From positions 1 to 43,555 of the IMG/VR virus record IMGVR_UViG_3300023174_000291: 43,555 bases of DNA. One strand, written 5' to 3'. The notes beneath the pieces were generated by a model, which saw nothing but the letters and a program-made list of their open reading frames with translations, did not search any database and was not told where the DNA came from. A program made the position numbers and the translations under genes. Below, piece by piece: positions 5,204 through 38,757 of this stretch (within the stretch, counting starts at the first letter, position 1; each line of letters opens with the position of its first letter). The stretch is from a virus.

Positions 5204-5602
5204 ATGGGATACACACATTACTGGACATTAGAAAATGGGATTGAGCAATCCGACTGGAATAAATTCTTAGAAGGCGCTCGCCTGATTATTGAAACTGCTA
5301 AAGATGCAGGAATTCCTATTGAAGATAACTCAGCAGGTGCTTCTATCTACTTTAATGGCGTAGGTTCTGGCGCTCACGAAACTTTTGTAATTACTTCGGA
5401 AGATACTGGTTTTAGTTTTTGCAAAACTGCTGAGAAACCTTACGATACCGCGGTAACTGCAATCCTTATTCATCTAAAGCAATCGCTTGGCTCAAAGGTG
5501 GTCGTTACTTCAGATGGGGAATGGGAAGATTGGTCTGCTGGGCGTTTGCTTTACGAAACTGTCTACGACAAAAATATTGAAGTGGACTTTTTAGGTGTCT
5601 GA
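5204..5602 (+). CDS. Conserved phage hypothetical protein (MGYTHYW family), 132 aa
   Basis: It begins MGYTHYWTLENG, a start seen in a recurring protein of unknown function in phages and bacteria. Conserved-looking blocks follow: ASIYFNGVGSGAHETFVI at about 46-63, a Phe/Cys segment (FSFCKTAEKPYDTAVTAIL) and a WSAGRLLYETVY end. GAGAGG precedes the ATG, which directly follows the previous stop. The size is as expected for the family. It probably folds as a small alpha/beta domain; no catalytic motif is evident. Confidence 0.75.
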   Translation: MGYTHYWTLENGIEQSDWNKFLEGARLIIETAKDAGIPIEDNSAGASIYFNGVGSGAHETFVITSEDTGFSFCKTAEKPYDTAVTAILIHLKQSLGSKVVVTSDGEWEDWSAGRLLYETVYDKNIEVDFLGV

Positions 5603-5765
5603 CGAGATACTCGCTGAATTGGTGGATGAGTTTGGGACGGGGATTCTGTCCTCATCTCATCCACACACGGGTCTAACTTTGAGGCAATGTCAAAAGTTAT
5701 TAAACAAATATGGGCTAGATGAGGCTAAAGTAATTGTCCAAAGGTGGAAAAAGATTTTCACATAG
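5595..5765 (+). CDS. Small protein with GTG start, 56 aa, overlapping the terminase end
   Basis: A GTG at 5595 overlaps the previous stop by eight bases and the frame runs to TAG at 5763-5765. The product begins MSDEILAELVDEFGTG and is mostly helical (LRQCQKLLNKYGLDEAKVIVQRWKK), with spacing like a short helix-turn-helix or bundle. It is convergent with the large terminase gene and overlaps its last eight bases. The start has only a weak Shine-Dalgarno (TTAGG), so translation would rely on coupling. Confidence 0.5.
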   Translation: MSDEILAELVDEFGTGILSSSHPHTGLTLRQCQKLLNKYGLDEAKVIVQRWKKIFT

Positions 5766-7356
5766 TCCAAGGATTTGACTGGGTAAAAGATAAAGGCGAT
5801 AAGGGCGCGTGAATAGTTTTATTTTCATACAGCGCTAGAAGAATTGCTTCTGCTCTGTCAGGTGAATGAACTCCCCGCTTTTTCATGTCTGCCTTAGCCT
5901 CAATTTGAATACGCCCTGAAGAATCACTCTTATAGGACGGACCCGCTAATTGGGCTAGAACTTGTCTATCGACATCTAGTTTTAGTTCTTGTTGCCCGTC
6001 TCTGGGTTGCAATAATTGGCGGGTATTCCACCACATCTCTGCTCTTTGATTCTTAAACTTATTGGCATCTTTGGGACGCTCTGCAACATTGACCCCAACA
6101 ATATCGGCGCGAACTTGTTGCTCTTTGCACCATCTATCCAATAAAGACACAACTCCCCAGCCGACGCCGATGGTATCTATCTTGACCCGTACCCGCTCAG
6201 TTATACCTCTAGCGGTATGAACCTCAACGGCTTTCTCAATCTCTCGCATGACAACGCCCGCGACATCTACCGCGTTTGCATTTATCTTGCCTGATGAACG
6301 ATGAACCAATTTAACCGTGTATCCATCTGCGAGCGCTATAACAAATTCATCCCCACCATCGGATGCAATATCCACCCCTAATCGAATAATGTTAGATTCA
6401 AGTGGAGTTTCATTTTCCAAGGATTGCTCAGCCCACGCGTAAGGGATAACTTTGCCCGTACTGGATTTTGGAAACCTTGCATGGATGCGGGCTTCAGCAA
6501 AAGCAGAATCTTCCCCGAATTCAGAAACAACATCATTTACCCAAGATTTATCTATCAAGTGAGTTGCAACGCTGTGAGGCTCTACATGGTTGGGGCAACT
6601 CTTACACATTCCCGTTGGCTCACCCGTAAAGTTTGGCGTGTCGTAGGCAGATATAGGCAAGATATTGTAAATAGGCGATGAACAGATTCTTTCAAACCAA
6701 GTCTGTTCTGCATCCGTTGGAGGATTCCCTAAAACCAAAAGCCGTGTATGTCCACCCGTCATCAGGGCTTCAAGGGCATTGCCAATCATGTCCGAGATTC
6801 CGCCCGCTTCGTCTACAACAACGAGCATGTGAGGAGCGTGGATACCTTGAACTGCCGCCTCGTCATTATTAGATGCGGAGAATCCGTAGGCAACTACCGT
6901 GCCATCCATTTTCCATTCCGTAGTTAAGATTTCACCTGCGAGATTATTGGCTGTGTGAACTCTTCGCACATTCGCCCACATGATGTTTCGCACTTGCCTA
7001 AAAGTTGTGGCTGTTGTGATAGCAATTGCCGTCCCAGGCGGGTGAACTGAAATCCACCATGCAATTGCTCGCGCCGCCAAGTGAGATTTTCCAGGCGCGT
7101 GACAAGCGGGAACTACCGTTCTTTTATTATCTACAAGGGATTGTAAAATCTCTTTTTGTTTGCTCCATAGAACTTCGCCTAAGCCTTCTTCAACAAAACC
7201 AATAGGGTCATGTTCGTATCTAGCCCAAGGGTTTTTAATTTCTGCGTCTAAGATAATCGAGAGCGCATATTTCTCATCTTGGGTCAGGGATAGATAAATT
7301 TCATTTCGTTCTTCAATACTCGCCCCGAGAACTCTGTCTACTAGGCGCTCGTTCAT
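5758..7356 (-). CDS. terL: Terminase large subunit
   Basis: A 532-residue packaging motor that cuts concatemeric DNA and pumps it into the prohead. The ATPase domain has a Walker A-like ACHAPGKS at 84-91, a Walker B HMLVVVDEAGG at about 176-186 and a coupling motif near LLVLGNPP at 207-213. The C-terminal RNase H-like nuclease begins at LGVDIASDGGDEFVI near 326-340, with a second acidic site in KIDTIGVGWG and a last one in SPDRAEAILL. A CKSCPNH insert at 251-257 may bind zinc. The start overlaps the end of the small subunit gene by four bases. Unusually for a tailed phage, the gene closes the leftward replication operon instead of preceding the portal gene, which must lie beyond the right edge. 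Confidence 0.92.
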   Translation of the reverse strand: MNERLVDRVLGASIEERNEIYLSLTQDEKYALSIILDAEIKNPWARYEHDPIGFVEEGLGEVLWSKQKEILQSLVDNKRTVVPACHAPGKSHLAARAIAWWISVHPPGTAIAITTATTFRQVRNIMWANVRRVHTANNLAGEILTTEWKMDGTVVAYGFSASNNDEAAVQGIHAPHMLVVVDEAGGISDMIGNALEALMTGGHTRLLVLGNPPTDAEQTWFERICSSPIYNILPISAYDTPNFTGEPTGMCKSCPNHVEPHSVATHLIDKSWVNDVVSEFGEDSAFAEARIHARFPKSSTGKVIPYAWAEQSLENETPLESNIIRLGVDIASDGGDEFVIALADGYTVKLVHRSSGKINANAVDVAGVVMREIEKAVEVHTARGITERVRVKIDTIGVGWGVVSLLDRWCKEQQVRADIVGVNVAERPKDANKFKNQRAEMWWNTRQLLQPRDGQQELKLDVDRQVLAQLAGPSYKSDSSGRIQIEAKADMKKRGVHSPDRAEAILLALYENKTIHAPLSPLSFTQSNPWTM

Positions 7357-23303: not shown

Positions 23304-24032
23304 TTATCTCCTAACGAAAGCAACTACGGGTGTAGATGCGCCTGTGCCAGCCGCGTATGTTAATTTCAAACGCAGGTACCGATTTACTGTTGTTCCACTT
23401 GCTACTTCCACTCTTTCTGAGGTGAGCGTGGTTGCGTTTACTGTCGTAAAAGTAACCAAATCCGTGAATGTGGAGTTATCCGCGGAATGTTGAATGACCG
23501 CGATAATGGTTCCAGTTCGCGTATTTATTGGGAGCGAGAAAAATCCAACCCCACCATTTGCTGATGAGGCTGTGTTATCTACGCTTGTTCCGTTTGTTGT
23601 TGCTGTGATTGAAGCACCTGAAGAAAGAAGCAAGCCACTTTCAACGCCCGTGCTTGCTTGGAACTCAGCACTTGTTTTGACTAAATCCCCAACTGAGCCT
23701 GAAACCTCATAAGAGGTATCGTCTGAGTTTGCGACAGTTGCGACATACCCTAAAGCGTGACCTTCTGGGGCAACAATGATATTTTGCTTTGTGGCTGAAC
23801 CCATAACCGTGTCAAAAAAGACATCCGTTCCCGTGGTTGTTCCTTCAAACATACCGCTCAATGAGATGGTGCCATCTTTTAATCCCGCAATATAAGTCTT
23901 TGCAGAACTTCCAAAGGCGCTGGTTTCAACTGGCTCTTGCATGGCTGATGCTGTCATGTCATTGAAATAAGTGCTGAAATCATATTTATCAATAAAAACA
24001 TTAACTGATTTACCGTGTCTAAATGTTGGCAT
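23304..24032 (-). CDS. Major tail tube protein with C-terminal Ig-like extension
   Basis: A 242-residue protein. Residues 1-140 form the tube domain shared with the downstream paralogue. Residues about 143-242 are a separate beta sandwich (LLLSSGASITATTNGTSV, GTIIAVIQHSADNSTFTDLVTF, VNRYLRLKLTYAAG) of the kind often added to major tail proteins as a surface-exposed Ig-like decoration. It probably forms the tail tube stack. The ATG overlaps the stop of the acidic small gene upstream by one base. Confidence 0.82.
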   Translation of the reverse strand: MPTFRHGKSVNVFIDKYDFSTYFNDMTASAMQEPVETSAFGSSAKTYIAGLKDGTISLSGMFEGTTTGTDVFFDTVMGSATKQNIIVAPEGHALGYVATVANSDDTSYEVSGSVGDLVKTSAEFQASTGVESGLLLSSGASITATTNGTSVDNTASSANGGVGFFSLPINTRTGTIIAVIQHSADNSTFTDLVTFTTVNATTLTSERVEVASGTTVNRYLRLKLTYAAGTGASTPVVAFVRR

Positions 24033-27559: not shown

Positions 27560-28006
27560 CTAACTATTAACTGGTTTATCTAAATAATTGCTATTTGGAT
27601 TATCGTGAATTCCAGCAAAGAAGTCTGTGTTGTAATCATCAACCATTCTGTCGTTAGTTGAAAGAAGGGAATCAGCGTTAGCCCACATAGTAGGAGGTGT
27701 TTTACGCATACGGCGCTGAAGGAAGTTATTAGCAAGGTCTTGATATTGCTTTGACTTAGCGGTGTAAGACTCAGATACCGAAATGTCTCCTACGCTTTTT
27801 GAAGTTGAATCGGCTAGACGACTAAAACGAGCAACAAGAGTTTCACACGCGGCACGACAAGTTTCATACACATTGCTCCACTCAGCAATTAAATAATCCA
27901 ACTCAGCATCATTGAACAAAGGGTCGTTAGAATCAACATCGTTGATGAGAAACCTCACCTTGTTACGGGTTGAGGTAGATGGGTCATTCGAGTAAGTAAA
28001 AGTCAT
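27560..28006 (-). CDS. Head-tail connector (gp6 / adaptor-like) protein
   Basis: A 148-residue helical protein: MTFTYSNDPSTSTRNKVRFL, INDVDSNDPLFNDAELDYLI then YETCRAACETLVARFSRLAD, YQDLANNFLQRR. The start (ST-RN-VRFLI-D-D) is the standard signature of phage adaptor proteins that dock under the portal. The C-terminal 40 residues are loop-like. It is the first head-tail gene after the fibre/enzyme island, over 9 kb away from the capsid gene. Confidence 0.85.
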   Translation of the reverse strand: MTFTYSNDPSTSTRNKVRFLINDVDSNDPLFNDAELDYLIAEWSNVYETCRAACETLVARFSRLADSTSKSVGDISVSESYTAKSKQYQDLANNFLQRRMRKTPPTMWANADSLLSTNDRMVDDYNTDFFAGIHDNPNSNYLDKPVNS

Positions 28007-28488
28007 TACATACCGCCAAGCAAAAATCCAACTGTTCGGGCATCATTTTGGGAAGTAAGCACATTTACTGCATCTGTGTCTGTTGCTTGGCTTGCATTAG
28101 CAAGTCCAGTAATCTTAAAACCACCCGCCGCTAAAGCGTTACCCAAAGTGCCTGAAGTAATTGTTGCGCTAGTTAAGGTTCCGCCTGTAATTACTGGGGA
28201 GGTTAGAGTCTTATTTGTAAGGGTTTGAGTAGCGGTGAGCAGGGTAACTGTTCCAGTAGCATCGGGAAAAGTAATTGTGCGGTCTGCTGTTGGGTCTACA
28301 ACTGTGAGTGTAGTTTCAAAAGCATCCGCTGTTGAACCCTCAAAGGTTAAATTAACAAGGTTTGTTGTGCCTATGTAGGAGTCTAAAAGGGTATCAATAT
28401 CACCCGCAAGATTAAGAAAATCTGTGTGAACGGCAGGGTTATCACCCGCGGTTGGGTATCTTAGACCTTTACTTGTTGTACCTGCCAT
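28006..28488 (-). CDS. Short fibre-like protein with TLTNKTL repeat, 160 aa
   Basis: Contains the phage-fibre motif TATQTLTNKTLTSPVITGGT found in many aquatic phage tail and head fibres, and a beta-helix-like Thr/Ser-rich region (TLTSATITSGTLGNALAAGG). The C-terminus is hydrophobic (GFLLGGM), like those of three island genes (LFFLVGA, LLLIGG, MMLMGV). It is probably a fibre or decoration subunit. Upstream 60 bases hold the direct repeat TTAGGGGT / CTAGGGGT. Confidence 0.75.
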   Translation of the reverse strand: MAGTTSKGLRYPTAGDNPAVHTDFLNLAGDIDTLLDSYIGTTNLVNLTFEGSTADAFETTLTVVDPTADRTITFPDATGTVTLLTATQTLTNKTLTSPVITGGTLTSATITSGTLGNALAAGGFKITGLANASQATDTDAVNVLTSQNDARTVGFLLGGM

Positions 28489-28549
28489 TAAATACCCCTA
28501 GCGCTTAAAGTAAACCCCTAATGATACCAAACAACTAAATATGGGATAA

Positions 28550-28759
28550 TTACGATTTACTCCTGCCCCATTTGATTTTATCCCACGCTCTTTCGTGGAA
28601 GTAGTAGAGAGTAATTTTTGTCATTACCTCCACCCCCGCTATAAGTCCAGCGGTAGAGGGTTTGCCAGTAACTAACCAACTTATTAGAAATGTGTCAATA
28701 GTTCCCGTGGTTCTCCAAGTTACGGCTTTGGCAAATGAGCGTGAACGAGCAGATTTCAC
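28550..28759 (-). CDS. DUF2061 membrane protein, 69 aa
   Basis: GTG start at 28759, overlapping the upstream stop as GTGA, with AAAGGAAA upstream. The protein reads SRSFAKAVTWRTTGTIDTFL then ISWLVTGKPSTAGLIAGVEV, MTKITLYYFHERAWDKIKWG. This matches DUF2061: two short hydrophobic helices with a conserved TWR and a YY-HERAW-KI-WG end. In bacteria DUF2061 genes often lie next to CysC-type (APS kinase) and sulfate-activation genes, and here it directly follows such a gene. It may be a membrane partner in sulfate handling; its biochemical role is not established. Confidence 0.82.
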   Translation of the reverse strand: MKSARSRSFAKAVTWRTTGTIDTFLISWLVTGKPSTAGLIAGVEVMTKITLYYFHERAWDKIKWGRSKS

Positions 28760-29511
28760 AAGCCCATTTCCTTTCTTTTTTGAGTAGCCGAGATTGCCTC
28801 AATTTCATCATCAAGTTTCACCTGTTCAATTTTGTAACCTACATCTCTACCGTAGACAATATGGGTAATGTTTGGAAACTTGACCACCATAGCGTTTCTC
28901 ATCTTAGGGTCGGCTTCAATAAAGGTTTTGACTTCCGAATAAGTGAGCGGGTCTTTCTCGCTAGTCTTGTAAGTATTGCGAACCCCAAGAACGACTTGCT
29001 CTGTTCTCTTACCTGCCTCATCATACAAAGCATGGTGTCCTTCGTGCCAAGGTTGGTAACGCCCAAGCATTAGGGTGGTTGGTTTCCTCCAGTCATACAG
29101 TCCACAATGAAAGATAACCAACTCGGCTTCTTCGGTTATGGACATTCCTGTTGGAATCTCAACATCAAAATTAGTTGGGTTTTCCCACATCTTGTTTGTA
29201 TCTACAAATCGTCCTTCTTTGATTCTGTTCACCCAAACAACGAAGTCGGCAACTCCAAAAGCATCTCTTGTTTCTTTTGTCGGACAAATAAAATCCACAA
29301 CAACTATTTGACCTTGCTCGTCAAGTAATCTTGCAAGCGCACCCAAACGGCGAGCGTTTTCTATTCTATCTGCTAACTCAAATCCTAAGTCTTGGTTTAG
29401 GTCGGCTCTTACTTTATCGGCATTGATGTGAGTAGCATTTATCCTATCGGCTAACTCAATAGCCAAACTTGTTTTACCACTTCCCGCTTGTCCTATTATT
29501 TGTATTATCAC
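28756..29511 (-). CDS. APS kinase-like / nucleotidyltransferase fusion
   Basis: A GTG start with AAGGAG at 5-base spacing. Residues 1-130 are a CysC-type kinase: P-loop GQAGSGKTS (7-15), INADKVRADLNQDLGFELAD (29-48, close to the DGDNVR-LGF signature) and ENARRLGALARLL. Residues 145-251 are an HxGH nucleotidyltransferase of the NMNAT/cytidylyltransferase type: LGRYQPWHEGHHALYDEAG (149-167), YGRDVGYKI and ISATQKRKEMG (240-250, like ISxTxxR). The kinase half could make PAPS from APS. The second half could make an adenylated or cytidylated product and is not a typical ATP sulfurylase. The pair recalls fusions seen in cyanophages. With the sulfotransferase nearby, PAPS supply is an attractive inference. 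Confidence 0.83.
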   Translation of the reverse strand: MIIQIIGQAGSGKTSLAIELADRINATHINADKVRADLNQDLGFELADRIENARRLGALARLLDEQGQIVVVDFICPTKETRDAFGVADFVVWVNRIKEGRFVDTNKMWENPTNFDVEIPTGMSITEEAELVIFHCGLYDWRKPTTLMLGRYQPWHEGHHALYDEAGKRTEQVVLGVRNTYKTSEKDPLTYSEVKTFIEADPKMRNAMVVKFPNITHIVYGRDVGYKIEQVKLDDEIEAISATQKRKEMGL

Positions 29512-30188
29512 GACTTCTCCTTAGTTATATTGACTGCTCTGCCATACCTATCAATTCCAAAATACTTTATGTCAGAAATAATTCCTTTTGTAAAAATTAC
29601 TTTAGGCATATAAAGACATTTATTTCTTTTTACTTCCTCATTTATGTAATTGCAATTTGCAGGTATATCAATGGCGTACTCCTTACAACTCCAATCTACA
29701 AAATTATTGACAACCCAATAAATAGGATTGCCACAATACCAAGACATTTTACTCATAATGTTTACATGAGAGGATGCTATTTTGCCAAAGACTACAAAGT
29801 TTGATGTACCCTCGGGGTCGGGATATTGAGCATTAGGGGCATCATCTAAAAAGATACAGTCAAAAGTTCCAAGCGAGCCTAACTTATCTTGCCAAGAACC
29901 CTCAATTATATTTACAGGGTATTTTTGCGCCTTTGCCCAAGTCCTAAGTTTTTCACAAACAGCCGCGTCCATCTCAATAATTGTATGACTTTTTATTTTA
30001 TACTTTTGTATCTGACTGGCAGAGTAACCCATACCAAAACCAATTTCAAGCACATCGCCATACGGTTCTAAGTTATCTATCAACGCTTCCATATATGGTT
30101 TTTCCCACGCCATCATAGTTTGGTAGTTTATGGTTTTATCAAAAAGCATATCTGCGTTTAATGAATCTTTTGTGTAAATAAGACTCAT
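29508..30188 (-). CDS. Guanidinoacetate-methyltransferase-like SAM methyltransferase
   Basis: A 226-residue class I methyltransferase. Its core reads MMAWEKPYMEALIDNLEP (25-42), GDVLEIGFGMGYSASQIQKY (44-63, SAM loop), HTIIEMDAAVCEKLRTWA (68-85) and TFDCIFLDDAP (108-118). WEKPYM, GFGMG and the IIE-M...LR-WA pattern closely follow eukaryotic GAMT and yeast-type RMT2, which methylate guanidino groups. It could therefore modify an arginine or other guanidinium compound, though the target is unknown. The C-terminus (GKIASSHVNIMSKMSWY, KVIFTKGI) is normal for the fold. It lies between the DUF6065-like and APS-kinase genes. Confidence 0.82.
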   Translation of the reverse strand: MSLIYTKDSLNADMLFDKTINYQTMMAWEKPYMEALIDNLEPYGDVLEIGFGMGYSASQIQKYKIKSHTIIEMDAAVCEKLRTWAKAQKYPVNIIEGSWQDKLGSLGTFDCIFLDDAPNAQYPDPEGTSNFVVFGKIASSHVNIMSKMSWYCGNPIYWVVNNFVDWSCKEYAIDIPANCNYINEEVKRNKCLYMPKVIFTKGIISDIKYFGIDRYGRAVNITKEKS

Positions 30189-30893
30189 TTATTTATATCT
30201 CTTTTTAGTGTGAAATAACTTACCGTATGACCCACTAATTTTTTTCATAAGCAATTCTTGATTTAATCTGTGGTCTTTTTCGATACCCCTTTCGCAGTTC
30301 ATCTCCCAGTCTTTTCTTTCAAAAGGAATTATTTGAACGATTGGTGTGCCAGCCTCAATTATTCCCTCCCACCTCTTTTTTAGAACAAATGGTTGATTGA
30401 TGTCTGTTTTTAATTTATCAGTATCAACAATTCCCGTAATTGCCCTAAAGGGCAAATTAGAATACCCAATAGGGTGCGTAAACAAACAAGACCAGTTTTT
30501 AGGAGTTTGAACTAACCAAGGGTTTATTAGTTTGAATATCTGCTTGTTAAAACCATCGGGTATTTCAAAGCCCGCAGACTGGTCTAGTTGCCAAGTTTCA
30601 ACCCAATTTATATTAAAGGAGTTCCAAGTAATAGTAGGAATGTCATCGTTACCAACATACCTGACCAGTAAATCTACTGGGGCTGGAATAATATAACCGC
30701 TCGTCAAACTATCTAAAATTGGAAAACATTTCTTTACGGTTGCTAACTGTCCCTTTGGTTCGTTATTTCTATGCTCGGAAGAAGTAGAGGGTTTTATATT
30801 TTTGAACCACTCGGGTATTGCCGCAACTGCTGGATAGGGTTTTTCGGCAATATCATAATGATTTTCAGTTATGGATTTGAAGGTGATTTTCAT
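30189..30893 (-). CDS. DUF6065-like hypothetical protein
   Basis: About 234 residues from the second ATG (MKITFKSITENHYDIAEKPY), preferred because GGGA lies before it; the first ATG at 30902 has no site. It contains AAIPEWFKNIKPS, then LATVKKCFPILDSLTSGYII, PAPVDLLVRYV, and later WLVQTPKNWSCLFTHPIGY and DINQPFVLKKRWEG, IIEAGTPIVQIIPFERKDWE. These blocks recur in a protein of unknown function in marine and freshwater phages (DUF6065). The C-terminal part resembles a cupin-type jelly roll. Its place between sulfotransferase and methyltransferase suggests a part in the same surface-modification route. Confidence 0.75.
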   Translation of the reverse strand: MKITFKSITENHYDIAEKPYPAVAAIPEWFKNIKPSTSSEHRNNEPKGQLATVKKCFPILDSLTSGYIIPAPVDLLVRYVGNDDIPTITWNSFNINWVETWQLDQSAGFEIPDGFNKQIFKLINPWLVQTPKNWSCLFTHPIGYSNLPFRAITGIVDTDKLKTDINQPFVLKKRWEGIIEAGTPIVQIIPFERKDWEMNCERGIEKDHRLNQELLMKKISGSYGKLFHTKKRYK

Positions 30894-31690
30894 TTTTCCC
30901 ATATTTCGTAGTTTTTATATTTTTGTATAACATAATCTGAAAGTACATCTTGATATGGTTTTGAGGTTTTAGAAATCGTTTTTCTTATTTCGTGAAATCC
31001 ATTTAAGCCAAACATTTTGTCATCCTCGGGGTATTTATTTTGGATGTTTGAAAAATCATATTTGAAGTCGGGGATTTCCATAAAATCACAAACCGCTTTT
31101 GTAGTTGCTTCGGGCGACTCTATCAACTCATCATAGGTTATTAAGATAAAATTGCTTTTTTCCATGACATTTTTTATTGACCAAAGCGACCTATCTATTA
31201 AGCCGTCGGGCTTCATTAGAAAATCACATCTTGCATCATTTAATTCCCGATAGTAATAAGGAATCTCGTTATCGTAGTAGGAAGTGTTTTGATGAGGCTT
31301 ATTTAGCAAGGTAACGAAAGACGCTAAAATATCAAGTATGTCTCTCACCAGTAGGACAAATTTTGGTTCTTGCGTTATATGTCTTTTTATCATATCTAAG
31401 TTATACGGGTTTCCCCAATCGCGGCACTTGTCAAAAATGTATGTTTCTGTTTTATTTTCGTAGGCAGATTTAGAAATACCTTTCATAACTCTGTCTAAAT
31501 AAGGCAAATCTGCGAATACTTGAAACTGCTCTGTTTGTAAAATGTTTTGGTATGTATCCCACATTATTTGACACAATGGGGAGTTCGGAGTGGCGCAAAT
31601 ATCAGGGTTTTGATTTAGTATAGAACTAAACAAAGTTGTACCCGACCTAGGTAAGCCTGATAAAAAATATATCTTTTTACTGTCCATCAT
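30890..31690 (-). CDS. PAPS-dependent sulfotransferase-like protein
   Basis: A 266-residue protein with the P-loop-like PAPS 5'-phosphosulfate binding motif FLSGLPRSGTTLFSSIL at 9-25 and the 3'-phosphate motif FVLLVRDILDILASF, with Arg116 and Ser124 eight residues apart as in sulfotransferases. A Trp/His-rich end (GLNGFHEIRKTISK) is typical. It would transfer sulfate from PAPS to a sugar, lipid or Tyr hydroxyl. The start is an ATGATG pair at 31690/31687 that overlaps the oxygenase gene end. The APS-kinase-like gene, which could supply PAPS, lies two genes further on. Confidence 0.85.
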   Translation of the reverse strand: MMDSKKIYFLSGLPRSGTTLFSSILNQNPDICATPNSPLCQIMWDTYQNILQTEQFQVFADLPYLDRVMKGISKSAYENKTETYIFDKCRDWGNPYNLDMIKRHITQEPKFVLLVRDILDILASFVTLLNKPHQNTSYYDNEIPYYYRELNDARCDFLMKPDGLIDRSLWSIKNVMEKSNFILITYDELIESPEATTKAVCDFMEIPDFKYDFSNIQNKYPEDDKMFGLNGFHEIRKTISKTSKPYQDVLSDYVIQKYKNYEIWEK

Positions 31691-32282
31691 GTAGCCAAGA
31701 AACTATTGCGTACTTTGTACCTTTAGTGACGGGGTGAGCAATGTGAGCATAAGGGAAACTAGAAGGAAAAATGTATAAACTTCCCGCACGGGGTTTTATC
31801 TTGAGGTCAAAATTAACAAACTCTAACTCGCCGCCCTCGTAATCATCGTTTAGGTACAAAATAGGGGAGACCGCCCTGCGAGTTACAGTATCACCGTCGT
31901 AGTGGGCTTTGTATTCGTTGCCAGTCCGATAGCGCAAAAGGTTATACGGCTCATGGTAAAGAGCGGAAATGTCGGGTAAAAACCGTCTACGATAAACTTC
32001 CGTAGCCGCTAAAACTGTTTCATAAAAAGAGTTATTTAATCTTCTAAAAAAATCGTTGTGTCTAGCCGCTTCAGTAATGCCCAAATGTGCATTAGTTCTG
32101 TATCCAGCAATGTCACCGTTTAGGATATTTGCTGGTACAAAACCGAACAAATTGTTTACATCGCCAACTTCATTTTCAATTTCTTTTATGAGCGCTTCGC
32201 TGTTTTCCCATATATTTACATATTCATAAATACAGCCAGCATATACATTGGTTGGGTAGATGAGATTGGGTGGTACAAACAT
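31677..32282 (-). CDS. 2-oxoglutarate/Fe(II) dioxygenase (prolyl hydroxylase-like)
   Basis: A 201-residue oxygenase with the iron triad His127 and Asp129 in YKAHYDGDTV and His183 in YAHIAHPVTKG, plus Lys190 before YAIVSWLHDG as the likely 2-oxoglutarate carboxylate binder. LYLNDDYEGGELEF and RAGSLYIFPSSF are the usual strand motifs of P4H-type enzymes found in cyanophages. It hydroxylates a substrate, possibly a protein side chain or surface sugar. AGAGGAGAG precedes the ATG. It is the first gene of the oxygenase, sulfotransferase, methyltransferase, kinase string. Confidence 0.87.
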   Translation of the reverse strand: MFVPPNLIYPTNVYAGCIYEYVNIWENSEALIKEIENEVGDVNNLFGFVPANILNGDIAGYRTNAHLGITEAARHNDFFRRLNNSFYETVLAATEVYRRRFLPDISALYHEPYNLLRYRTGNEYKAHYDGDTVTRRAVSPILYLNDDYEGGELEFVNFDLKIKPRAGSLYIFPSSFPYAHIAHPVTKGTKYAIVSWLHDGQ

Positions 32283-32311
32283 ATTCTCTCCTCTTGTTTG
32301 TTTGAATTACC

Positions 32312-32680
32312 CTACCCCACAGCCTCCCAATTAACAAGCGTTTCATTCCAAATATAGCCAGCGTTATCGGTAGGCATAGGTACTGGGGCTACAAATGAGG
32401 CAACCTCATCACTAAAAACCCAAGATGGGTATGGTTTTGGTTGAAAGAAAATATCTTTAATAGGGTCATAATGCCAACCTCTACCAGCGTAGTTTCCTCG
32501 CAGGGGCGTACCGCCCAATTTATGTTCATTACGGAAAGTATTGTATGAAGTCTGTATCCAAGTACCGCCCTTACCCATATCTACGGCTAAATACTCTTGA
32601 CCTCTGTGTTCTTGTTCGTCTGCAACGACAAGTACGCGCAACACAATGTTGTTTTCATCTACTTCTGCAAAGTGCGCCAT
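32312..32680 (-). CDS. Conserved aquatic-phage virion protein, 122 aa
   Basis: The protein begins MAHFAEVDENNIVLRVLVVA and contains TWIQTSYNTFRNEHKLGGTP, LRGNYAGRGWHYDPIKDIFF and PKPYPSWVFSDE, then PVPMPTDNAGYIWNE. This order is typical of a structural protein seen in many cyanophages and other aquatic phages, usually near fibre genes. TGATG overlap with the Gly-rich fibre stop. It is probably part of a fibre or receptor-binding complex. Confidence 0.78.
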   Translation of the reverse strand: MAHFAEVDENNIVLRVLVVADEQEHRGQEYLAVDMGKGGTWIQTSYNTFRNEHKLGGTPLRGNYAGRGWHYDPIKDIFFQPKPYPSWVFSDEVASFVAPVPMPTDNAGYIWNETLVNWEAVG

Positions 32681-37779: not shown

Positions 37780-38757
37780 TTAAGCGACGACTGTATCCCA
37801 GAACCAACCGAGGTCAGAAGCGATGACTTTATTATCAAAAGCCATTTCTGCTTCAATTCGGTCAGCCTTGAGGTGTTCCATACGGAACTGTGAAGTACCA
37901 ACTGTTGCTCCGAGTCCGCCTGATACACCTGTCCATGCGAACGAGTATCCAGCAGAAGGAGTTAGCAAGCCTGGGTTTGGTGCAACATGGCAAAGAAGGG
38001 CTTTCTTACCTGATGTAAATGAATACGCGGCAGTAGCACCTTCGTTGTTTGTTGCCTTGACACCCTTGGAAACGATAACGCGAGGAATATCAAACATCGC
38101 GGCTAACATATCGGCAGTAACAGTCTGTGAAGATGTGTACTTGATACGGTCTACAATGTCAGGGTGATTCTTTAGTGCGCGGAATACATCGTATCCCAAT
38201 ACTAAAGTGTTTGCTTCCATGCCAGTTGTTGAAAGAATACCTGATTTGGCATCTTCAATATCATCAATTGGGTCTGAAGCGGCGTAATCTGACCATTGCT
38301 TTACTTCGTTTGTTGAAGGAGTTCCTGAAACACCATCATAGTCGTTAGCCCAAACAGAGCCAGCGAAGAAATCTGTGTTCCATTGTACTTCTTTGCGAAG
38401 CATTAAACGACGAGTTACGAACTCTGTTGCCTCGCGTAGTGGGTTTAATGGTGTGTCTGAGTTGTAAAGAGTCTGGTCATCTACATCCTTATGGAAAGCA
38501 AATACATCTGCGCTATAAGAACCAGTTGAAAGACCGTAACCTCCACCAGCAGACTCAGTTCCACCTGCGCGGCGTTGAGCCTCGTCACGGAACCAGTCAT
38601 TTTTGGTGTAAGTAAAGAATTTGTTAGACTTTTTATCCACAGGAATTACTGGGAATACTTTGTCTGCAATAAAATTATCTTGATTTTGAAGATACGCTAC
38701 TGAAATGTTTGTCAGAATCGCATCAATATGGACTTGACCGCCCGTTGGTTGTGGCAT
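37780..38757 (-). CDS. Major capsid protein
   Basis: A 325-residue protein in the expected place after scaffold and decoration genes. It contains VHIDAILTNISVAYLQNQDN, FIADKVFPVIPVDKKSNKFF, then DEAQRRAGGTESAGGGYGLS, EFVTRRLMLRKEVQWNTDFF and ANTLVLGYDVFRALKNHPDI, with a closing FRMEHLKADRIEAEMAFDNK. These blocks match phage coat proteins of the lambda E / HK97-fold class (N-arm, P-domain, A-domain). No protease site is obvious near the N-terminus, consistent with a separate scaffold protein. A GGAGATATAACTC leader precedes the ATG. Confidence 0.88.
   Translation of the reverse strand: MPQPTGGQVHIDAILTNISVAYLQNQDNFIADKVFPVIPVDKKSNKFFTYTKNDWFRDEAQRRAGGTESAGGGYGLSTGSYSADVFAFHKDVDDQTLYNSDTPLNPLREATEFVTRRLMLRKEVQWNTDFFAGSVWANDYDGVSGTPSTNEVKQWSDYAASDPIDDIEDAKSGILSTTGMEANTLVLGYDVFRALKNHPDIVDRIKYTSSQTVTADMLAAMFDIPRVIVSKGVKATNNEGATAAYSFTSGKKALLCHVAPNPGLLTPSAGYSFAWTGVSGGLGATVGTSQFRMEHLKADRIEAEMAFDNKVIASDLGWFWDTVVA

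Follow-up and report, generated by a model that had tools for sequence, protein, structure and literature searches.

Why should a virus carry a gene for an adenosine 5′-phosphosulfate (APS) kinase beside one for a sulfotransferase? The question is raised by IMG/VR virus record IMGVR_UViG_3300023174_000291, analyzed here over its full 43,555 bases (the window), in which six minus-strand open reading frames (ORFs) lie at positions 28550–32282. The frames overlap (28756–28759, 29508–29511, 30890–30902, and 31677–31690) or abut (30188/30189), as in a translationally coupled operon, and encode, from 32282 downward, a 2-oxoglutarate (2OG) oxygenase, a sulfotransferase (ST), a DUF6065-like protein, a methyltransferase, a two-domain protein here called KIN-NT, and a DUF2061 membrane protein (Table 1). 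A first-pass annotation had placed six genes here and read them as a single sulfation cassette in which a CysC-like kinase makes the sulfate donor, 3′-phosphoadenosine 5′-phosphosulfate (PAPS). All six ORFs were found in the place and on the strand that it gave, and the gene content of the cassette is confirmed. We favor, with moderate confidence, a sulfation core of three members: KIN-NT, DUF2061, and ST.

KIN-NT divides into an APS-kinase domain (residues 1 to ~138) and an HxGH nucleotidylyltransferase (NT) domain (~139–251), and its full length matches phrog_10255. The protein passes the PF01583 (APS_kinase) cut-off (65.3 vs. 21.1 bits, E 8.5e-18) over its first 84 residues, and in profile comparisons the best solved relatives of the kinase half are APS kinases and human PAPSS. 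The APS-contact residues D63, R66, F75, and R80 of Penicillium APS kinase align with D32, R35, F44, and R49, none of which varies across 54 phage alignment rows. The second half of the kinase, comprising the lid and C-terminal part, is diverged in sequence, yet in the AlphaFold2 model of KIN-NT (mean predicted local distance difference test, pLDDT, 92.8) the fold of residues 1–140 aligns to APS kinases with Z up to ~18.9 and a root-mean-square deviation of 1.6–2.0 Å. The TIGR00455 APS-kinase equivalog cut-off is missed (64.5 vs. 138.7 bits, with the match reaching residue 84). The CysC-like kinase of the first-pass annotation is thus borne out as a domain; as a description of the whole protein it was too narrow, since the second domain probably makes APS.

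That second domain is less readily named. KIN-NT also matches CTP_transf_like (PF01467; 22.2 bits, E 1.8e-4), and its NT part carries the motifs GRYQPWHEGH, YGRDVGY, and ISATxKR in the 54-row alignment; a Pfam scan found no match of KIN-NT to PF01747, the Sat-type ATP sulfurylase family. Modeled alone with AlphaFold2 (pLDDT 92.5), NT has PPAT, GCT, and NMNAT as its listed fold neighbors at Z 9–10.5, a listing that cannot by itself exclude the Sat fold, and its profile retrieves nicotinamide mononucleotide (NMN) adenylyltransferases first from the PDB (2qjt, E 1.5e-8). An identification of NT as an ATP sulfurylase from its fold was unsupported, the Foldseek and VIA-align rows being PPAT, NMNAT, and GCT. 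These relatives would suit a nucleotide-cofactor enzyme—a NadR-like kinase joined to an NMN adenylyltransferase, or a maker of some other 3′-phosphorylated donor—with the ST drawing on host PAPS; APS-kinase-like enzymes with other substrates exist, as in the Campylobacter phosphoramidate pathway. We consider this unlikely: the kinase half is APS-kinase-like in both sequence and fold, scores against curated NCBIfam NMN adenylyltransferase models fall far short of the cut-off of 127 bits (phage protein, 29.2; NT of genome G162, 34.5), and the cys operon context of the bacterial homologs and the CysN/CysC–DUF2061 fusions fit sulfate.

Those homologs came from a search of 289 genomes with the phage KIN-NT alignment, which recovered the kinase and NT as split genes; the genomes concerned are small and number five (G029, G121, G162, G260, and G214). 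In the first four, the gene order is sirohydrochlorin chelatase-like, uroporphyrinogen-III methyltransferase, CysI, CysH, DUF2061, kinase, NT; the names CysI (709 vs. 457 bits) and CysH (254 vs. 154 bits) are NCBIfam assignments for the G162 copy. The occurrence of NT, kinase, and DUF2061 genes within the cysI-cysH operon of streamlined Alphaproteobacteria is new beyond the first-pass annotation. The window NT is 51% identical to that of G162 over 114 residues, and the kinase halves are 35% identical.

Three of the four cys-operon genomes (G121, G162, and G260) contain cysH and cysI, with NT in the operon and no known ATP sulfurylase (PF01747, CysD, or CysN); G029 departs from this pattern. 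In a profile search of the five genomes, G029 was the only one with PF01747, which G121, G162, G214, and G260 lack, and CysN exceeded its cut-off in none of the five. PF01507, a family that takes in both CysD and CysH, gave one full-length match, the operon's own CysH, in each of the four; a second, partial match in G260 fell below the cut-off, and the only match in G214 was a partial one in a 523-residue frame. Within the G162 family, NT occurs in five of six genomes, the sixth being a 0.6-Mb genome, and a fifth member, G296, has NT and one PF01507 protein. Taken together with the fusions of DUF2061 to CysN and CysC described below, the cys operon context and the lack of a known sulfurylase indicate that the 113-residue NT is probably an unrecognized sulfate adenylyltransferase, an assignment drawn from gene context, and that the 251-residue KIN-NT is probably a minimal PAPS synthase, for which it stands as a candidate. 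The identity of NT as a new sulfate adenylyltransferase is likely but unproven.

The ST exceeds the Pfam cut-offs of PF13469 (Sulfotransfer_3; 61.6 vs. 27 bits, E 1.7e-16) and PF00685 (Sulfotransfer_1; 47.6 vs. 22 bits, E 1.9e-12), and the PAPS-binding loops ascribed to it by the first-pass annotation are present: the 5′-phosphosulfate-binding (5′-PSB) loop GLPRSGTT at residues 12–19, and the 3′-phosphate-binding (3′-PB) pair R116/S124, the PAPS motifs known from sulfotransferases. In the nine closest relatives of the locus (L002–L010), KIN-NT is 86–91% identical to that of the window; ST genes occur in eight of the nine, at only 27–36% identity. From these sequences, the donor enzyme appears to be constant while the transferase is swapped often. 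When the ST by itself was used to search the viral collection, no relative emerged, since patterns made from one protein are too strict where the gene changes this fast; STs were found through KIN loci instead.

Viral scans covered the best 80 of at least 598 relatives (first set) and the best 80 of at least 594 (second set), from which L161 (same contig as L028) was dropped; L001 is the window itself. Three ST families were counted: that of the window, c34 (PF03567, E 3.4e-8), and c45 (PF03567 in three of seven members). Their genes occur in 42 of 80 first-set loci (45 with family c75, which has a KVGGSS motif and was excluded as being without Pfam or PDB support) and 15 of 79 second-set loci, or 57/159 in total, as against 0/78 random viral loci and 5/40 matched-site loci. 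The ST hidden Markov models were trained on the first 80 KIN loci, so that the first-set counts are partly in-sample; the second and random sets took no part in training.

Because the random set is not habitat-matched, a matched-site control was made, in which an anchor gene (phrog_1732; Table 1) was used to collect this site from 40 related contigs, whether or not they carry KIN. Among the 38 copies that cover the site, window included, ST is present in 4/4 with KIN and 2/34 without (p 0.0002). Grouping the copies into 26 clusters leaves the contrast in place (with KIN, three with ST and none without; without KIN, one with ST and 22 without; p 0.0015). Two of the KIN-bearing copies (L289 and L291) are on the same contigs as L006 and L007, two loci that were among those used to train the ST model. 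Co-occurrence in related phages, a check set beforehand, thus finds KIN-NT tracking ST. As a separate observation, in two larger phage contigs (L095:6989–9358 and L096:3902–7347), the neighbors of KIN-NT are QueC-like PP-loop proteins and ORFs whose N-terminal motifs resemble those of sulfotransferases; one of three flanking ORFs scanned passes PF03567 (22.6 vs. 22 bits).

DUF2061 also accompanies KIN-NT. The window copy passes PF09834 (80.2 vs. 23.1 bits, E 1.5e-22), and the family occurs in 74 of 81 KIN records (the 80 first-set loci plus the window), starting there a median of 793 bp past the KIN start, and in 63 of 79 second-set loci; at the matched site it is present in 4/4 copies with KIN and 0/34 without. 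In cells, a class-level sample of Alphaproteobacteria comprising 115 genomes has DUF2061 matches in 21. In two of these genomes it forms the tail of a larger protein, CysN-CysC-DUF2061 (L195) and CysN-DUF2061 (L194); in another, G029, it stands after genes for sulfite reductase and a PAPS reductase-family protein and before those for the APS-kinase-like and HxGH proteins. Sulfate genes were recognized beside or fused to DUF2061 in 3/21 genomes (G029, G062, and G087), a count in which not all neighbors are annotated; other alphaproteobacterial DUF2061 genes adjoin gyrase, P450, or aminotransferase genes.

These associations bear on whether the genes are simply unrelated cargo of a hypervariable site, each working independently and co-located without functional meaning. 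Cargo at the site is indeed very diverse, DUF6065-like, 2OG, and Asp/Asn hydroxylase genes are also common in KIN loci, and the Asp/Asn hydroxylase family is itself KIN-associated at the matched site (2/4 vs. 0/34, p 0.0085). Nonetheless, the matched-site link of KIN with ST, the strict co-occurrence of DUF2061 with KIN there, and the fact that KIN has neighbors from several dissimilar ST families, time and again, make this explanation very doubtful.

The remaining alternative takes the kinase at its database name: as a viral cysC, KIN-NT would push host sulfate towards cysteine, and the adjoining ST would be coincidental cargo. Viral cysC genes of lake and ocean viromes, probably of the KIN-NT family, are annotated as adenylylsulfate kinase and reported as sulfur assimilation; surveys, in the text available from them, class viral cysC under assimilatory sulfate reduction without validation (PMC11053968, PMC12713726, PMC9611531), and the bacterial homologs do lie in an assimilation operon. 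However, a CysH-like gene (PAPS reductase) was found in 0/159 viral KIN loci, within the fetched flanks, and not in the window, whereas PAPS-using STs are a recurrent neighbor, the matched site included. We judge assimilation quite improbable as the phage role; in the absence of a nearby PAPS reductase, the PAPS probably goes to sulfation. A division in which PAPS serves sulfation in phages and some cells, and assimilation in the cys-operon genomes, fits the cellular copies: G101, G122, and G214 have KIN-NT, no full-length PF01507 protein, and a PF13469 ST each (in G122, ~9 kb from KIN-NT on the same contig), and G193 has PF01507 proteins as well as an ST ~2.8 kb from KIN-NT. In G214, on a 1.2-Mb contig that lacks cysH, a Rieske oxygenase-like gene precedes the split kinase and NT genes (L252:8260–10267); this Rieske-type gene is glycine betaine monooxygenase-like (125 bits vs. 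a cut-off of 670).

Several observations weigh against reading KIN-NT as a PAPS synthase for sulfation. NT matches no ATP sulfurylase in sequence or fold searches, its nearest solved relatives being NMN and phosphopantetheine adenylyltransferases, and the PF01583 match of the kinase half ends at profile position 91 of 152. The sulfurylase absences come from genomes of which some are in many contigs and for which completeness is not given. G029 was dropped as a genome with a missing sulfurylase, since it has a canonical PF01747 Sat on contig C19, apart from the cys operon. On the viral side, an ST was found in only 57 of 159 KIN loci, and neither DUF2061 nor ST was seen near KIN-NT in isolate phages L082–L084. 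In the first of these, Stenotrophomonas phage vB_SmaS_Bhz60 (Casjensviridae; 5553–6729), the KIN-NT relative adjoins a NADAR-annotated gene, which would suit the nucleotide-cofactor alternative, and a DNA methyltransferase. Separately, the neighbors of the G029 Sat gene (L221:1793–2857), read by eye, resemble NeuB-like and other surface-polysaccharide genes.

Weighing both sides, we regard KIN-NT, DUF2061, and ST as a phage-encoded sulfation module, with fair though not high confidence in an activity deduced from homology and context. In the first step of the proposed pathway, the C-terminal HxGH domain would join sulfate and ATP to give APS. The N-terminal APS-kinase domain would then phosphorylate APS to PAPS, and the ST would transfer the sulfuryl group of PAPS onto an acceptor; homology argues strongly for both of these later steps. 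DUF2061, which is linked with sulfate activation in bacteria as well, might anchor the enzyme or help sulfate supply, which is a guess. For the acceptor, as yet unproven, a surface structure is the most likely candidate: fiber genes surround the site, and ST turnover is fast while the donor enzyme stays constant. Donor-making and sulfation by the phage are strongly suggested, and it is very likely that the phage builds its own sulfate donor; on this point, the first-pass annotation is strengthened by the KIN–ST link, and what changes is the donor enzyme, which it had read as an APS kinase only.

In domain order, an APS kinase followed by an HxGH-type adenylyltransferase, KIN-NT resembles the bifunctional human PAPS synthetases PAPSS1/2, and the alignment of its kinase half with PAPSS1 gives Z 17.0–18.6; the human enzyme differs in size (a 630-residue construct, 1x6v, vs. 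251 residues), and the second domain of KIN-NT differs in having 113 residues, no PF01747 match, and a fold nearest PPAT/NMNAT. CysN-CysC and CysDN share the pathway position in alphaproteobacterial cys operons and, in the two genomes noted above, the link to DUF2061; unlike them, KIN-NT has neither a GTPase (CysN) nor a CysD-type PP-loop enzyme. The sulfotransferases of cyanophages S-SKS1 and S-SRM01 and of OM43 phages are, like the window ST, of PF13469 type, with 29–35% identity between the window ST and the S-SKS1 and S-SRM01 proteins; unlike the window, KIN-NT was not seen around the S-SKS1 ST.

We lean slightly towards a broader interpretation, in which NT arose independently within the PPAT/NMNAT branch as a sulfate adenylyltransferase of a third kind, Sat and CysDN being the other two. 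In phages its fusion with a shortened APS kinase would give a PAPS synthase of 251 residues that feeds interchangeable STs; a family of streamlined Alphaproteobacteria would use the two parts as separate proteins to assimilate sulfate, and DUF2061 would be their dedicated partner in the membrane. No title describing a KIN-NT/DUF2061/ST module was found in open-licence literature on sulfate activation, phage sulfotransferases, and DUF2061, and the accessible portions of published accounts (PMC11053968, PMC12713726, PMC9611531, PMC10580990, PMC5069961) yielded no link of viral cysC to an NT domain, DUF2061, or an ST. For SAR11, one of these accounts lists a cysC gene, perhaps of this family, in strains without cysH and most other cys genes (PMC5069961). 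If the interpretation is correct, a missing enzyme would be named, giving a sulfate route to bacteria with cysH and cysI and no known ATP sulfurylase. A common viral gene filed as cysC for assimilation would become a self-contained PAPS synthase for sulfation. For phage sulfotransferases, whose function a 2023 paper calls unclear (PMC10580990), there would be a source of donor and a role, open to testing, in the modification of virions or host surfaces, and DUF2061, whose function is not known, could be assigned to a pathway.

KIN-NT was found in only five of 50,697 phage records, and in a collection of genome contigs nine of 82 pattern matches encode a relative, several of them partial; these few matches indicate that the KIN-NT family belongs mainly to uncultivated phages. 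A tree of 65 proteins groups the four cys-operon copies together (support 100/99) and, across the midpoint from them, the three fused cellular copies (100/99). The root being the midpoint only, the tree gives no direction of transfer.

The other members of the operon behave differently. The hypervariable site (28490–32680; loci L263–L302), bounded by phrog_7759 and phrog_1732 genes, is in related phages either empty or filled with DUF6065-like, c67, 2OG, ST, and KIN modules in many combinations. The head and major tail genes of the window (Table 1) place it in the structural region, and cassette neighbors with Pfam or PHROG matches include fiber-like and glycine-rich genes, in agreement with the context first proposed. 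The 2OG oxygenase passes PF13640 (2OG-FeII_Oxy_3; 63.9 vs. 27 bits, E 2.7e-17). The methyltransferase, described earlier as GAMT-like, matches no such family among the matches listed at E ≤ 0.1 and appears to be generic class I (best matches RrnaAD, E 1.1e-5, and Methyltransf_25, E 4.7e-5); it has no PHROG match and occurs in one of 81 KIN records, as orphan cargo. The DUF6065-like label holds in part: PF19541 scores below its cut-off (24.3 vs. 26.6 bits), and the protein is a clear member of phrog_7084 (E 5.8e-47). Among the 38 matched-site copies, DUF6065-like genes (3/4 with KIN vs. 12/34 without), the 2OG enzyme, and the methyltransferase show no association with KIN. The idea of one sulfation cassette embracing all six genes is therefore not supported for these three, which are best seen as separable, independent cargo of the site.

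Table 1. Features of the window discussed in the text, with the basis of each assignment
Feature	Position	Strand	Basis
DUF2061 small membrane protein, 69 aa	28550–28759	−	GTG start; PF09834
KIN-NT, 251 aa (APS-kinase domain + HxGH nucleotidylyltransferase domain)	28756–29511	−	GTG start; PF01583, PF01467
NT domain of KIN-NT, 113 aa	28756–29097	−	Motifs, 54-row alignment, AlphaFold2 model
Class I methyltransferase, 226 aa	29508–30188	−	RrnaAD, Methyltransf_25
DUF6065-like protein, 237 aa	30189–30902	−	phrog_7084
Sulfotransferase (ST), 266 aa	30890–31690	−	PF13469, PF00685
2OG-Fe(II) oxygenase, 201 aa	31677–32282	−	PF13640
Conserved flank of hypervariable site	32312–32680	−	phrog_7759; in 29/40 matched-site loci
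Fiber-like protein, other flank	28006–28488	−	PHROG tail matches
Conserved gene, anchor for matched-site control	27560–28006	−	phrog_1732
Major head protein	37780–38757		
Major tail protein	23304–24032		

Two further gene clusters recur in KIN loci. An Asp/Asn beta-hydroxylase-like cluster (c14; PF05118, E 4.3e-12; e.g., L038:5441–6004) often lies directly upstream of KIN-NT, and a flavin-dependent tryptophan-halogenase-like cluster (c20, in 15 loci; PF04820, E 2.4e-101; e.g., L030:1741–3300) lies downstream of KIN-DUF2061 in many phage contigs.

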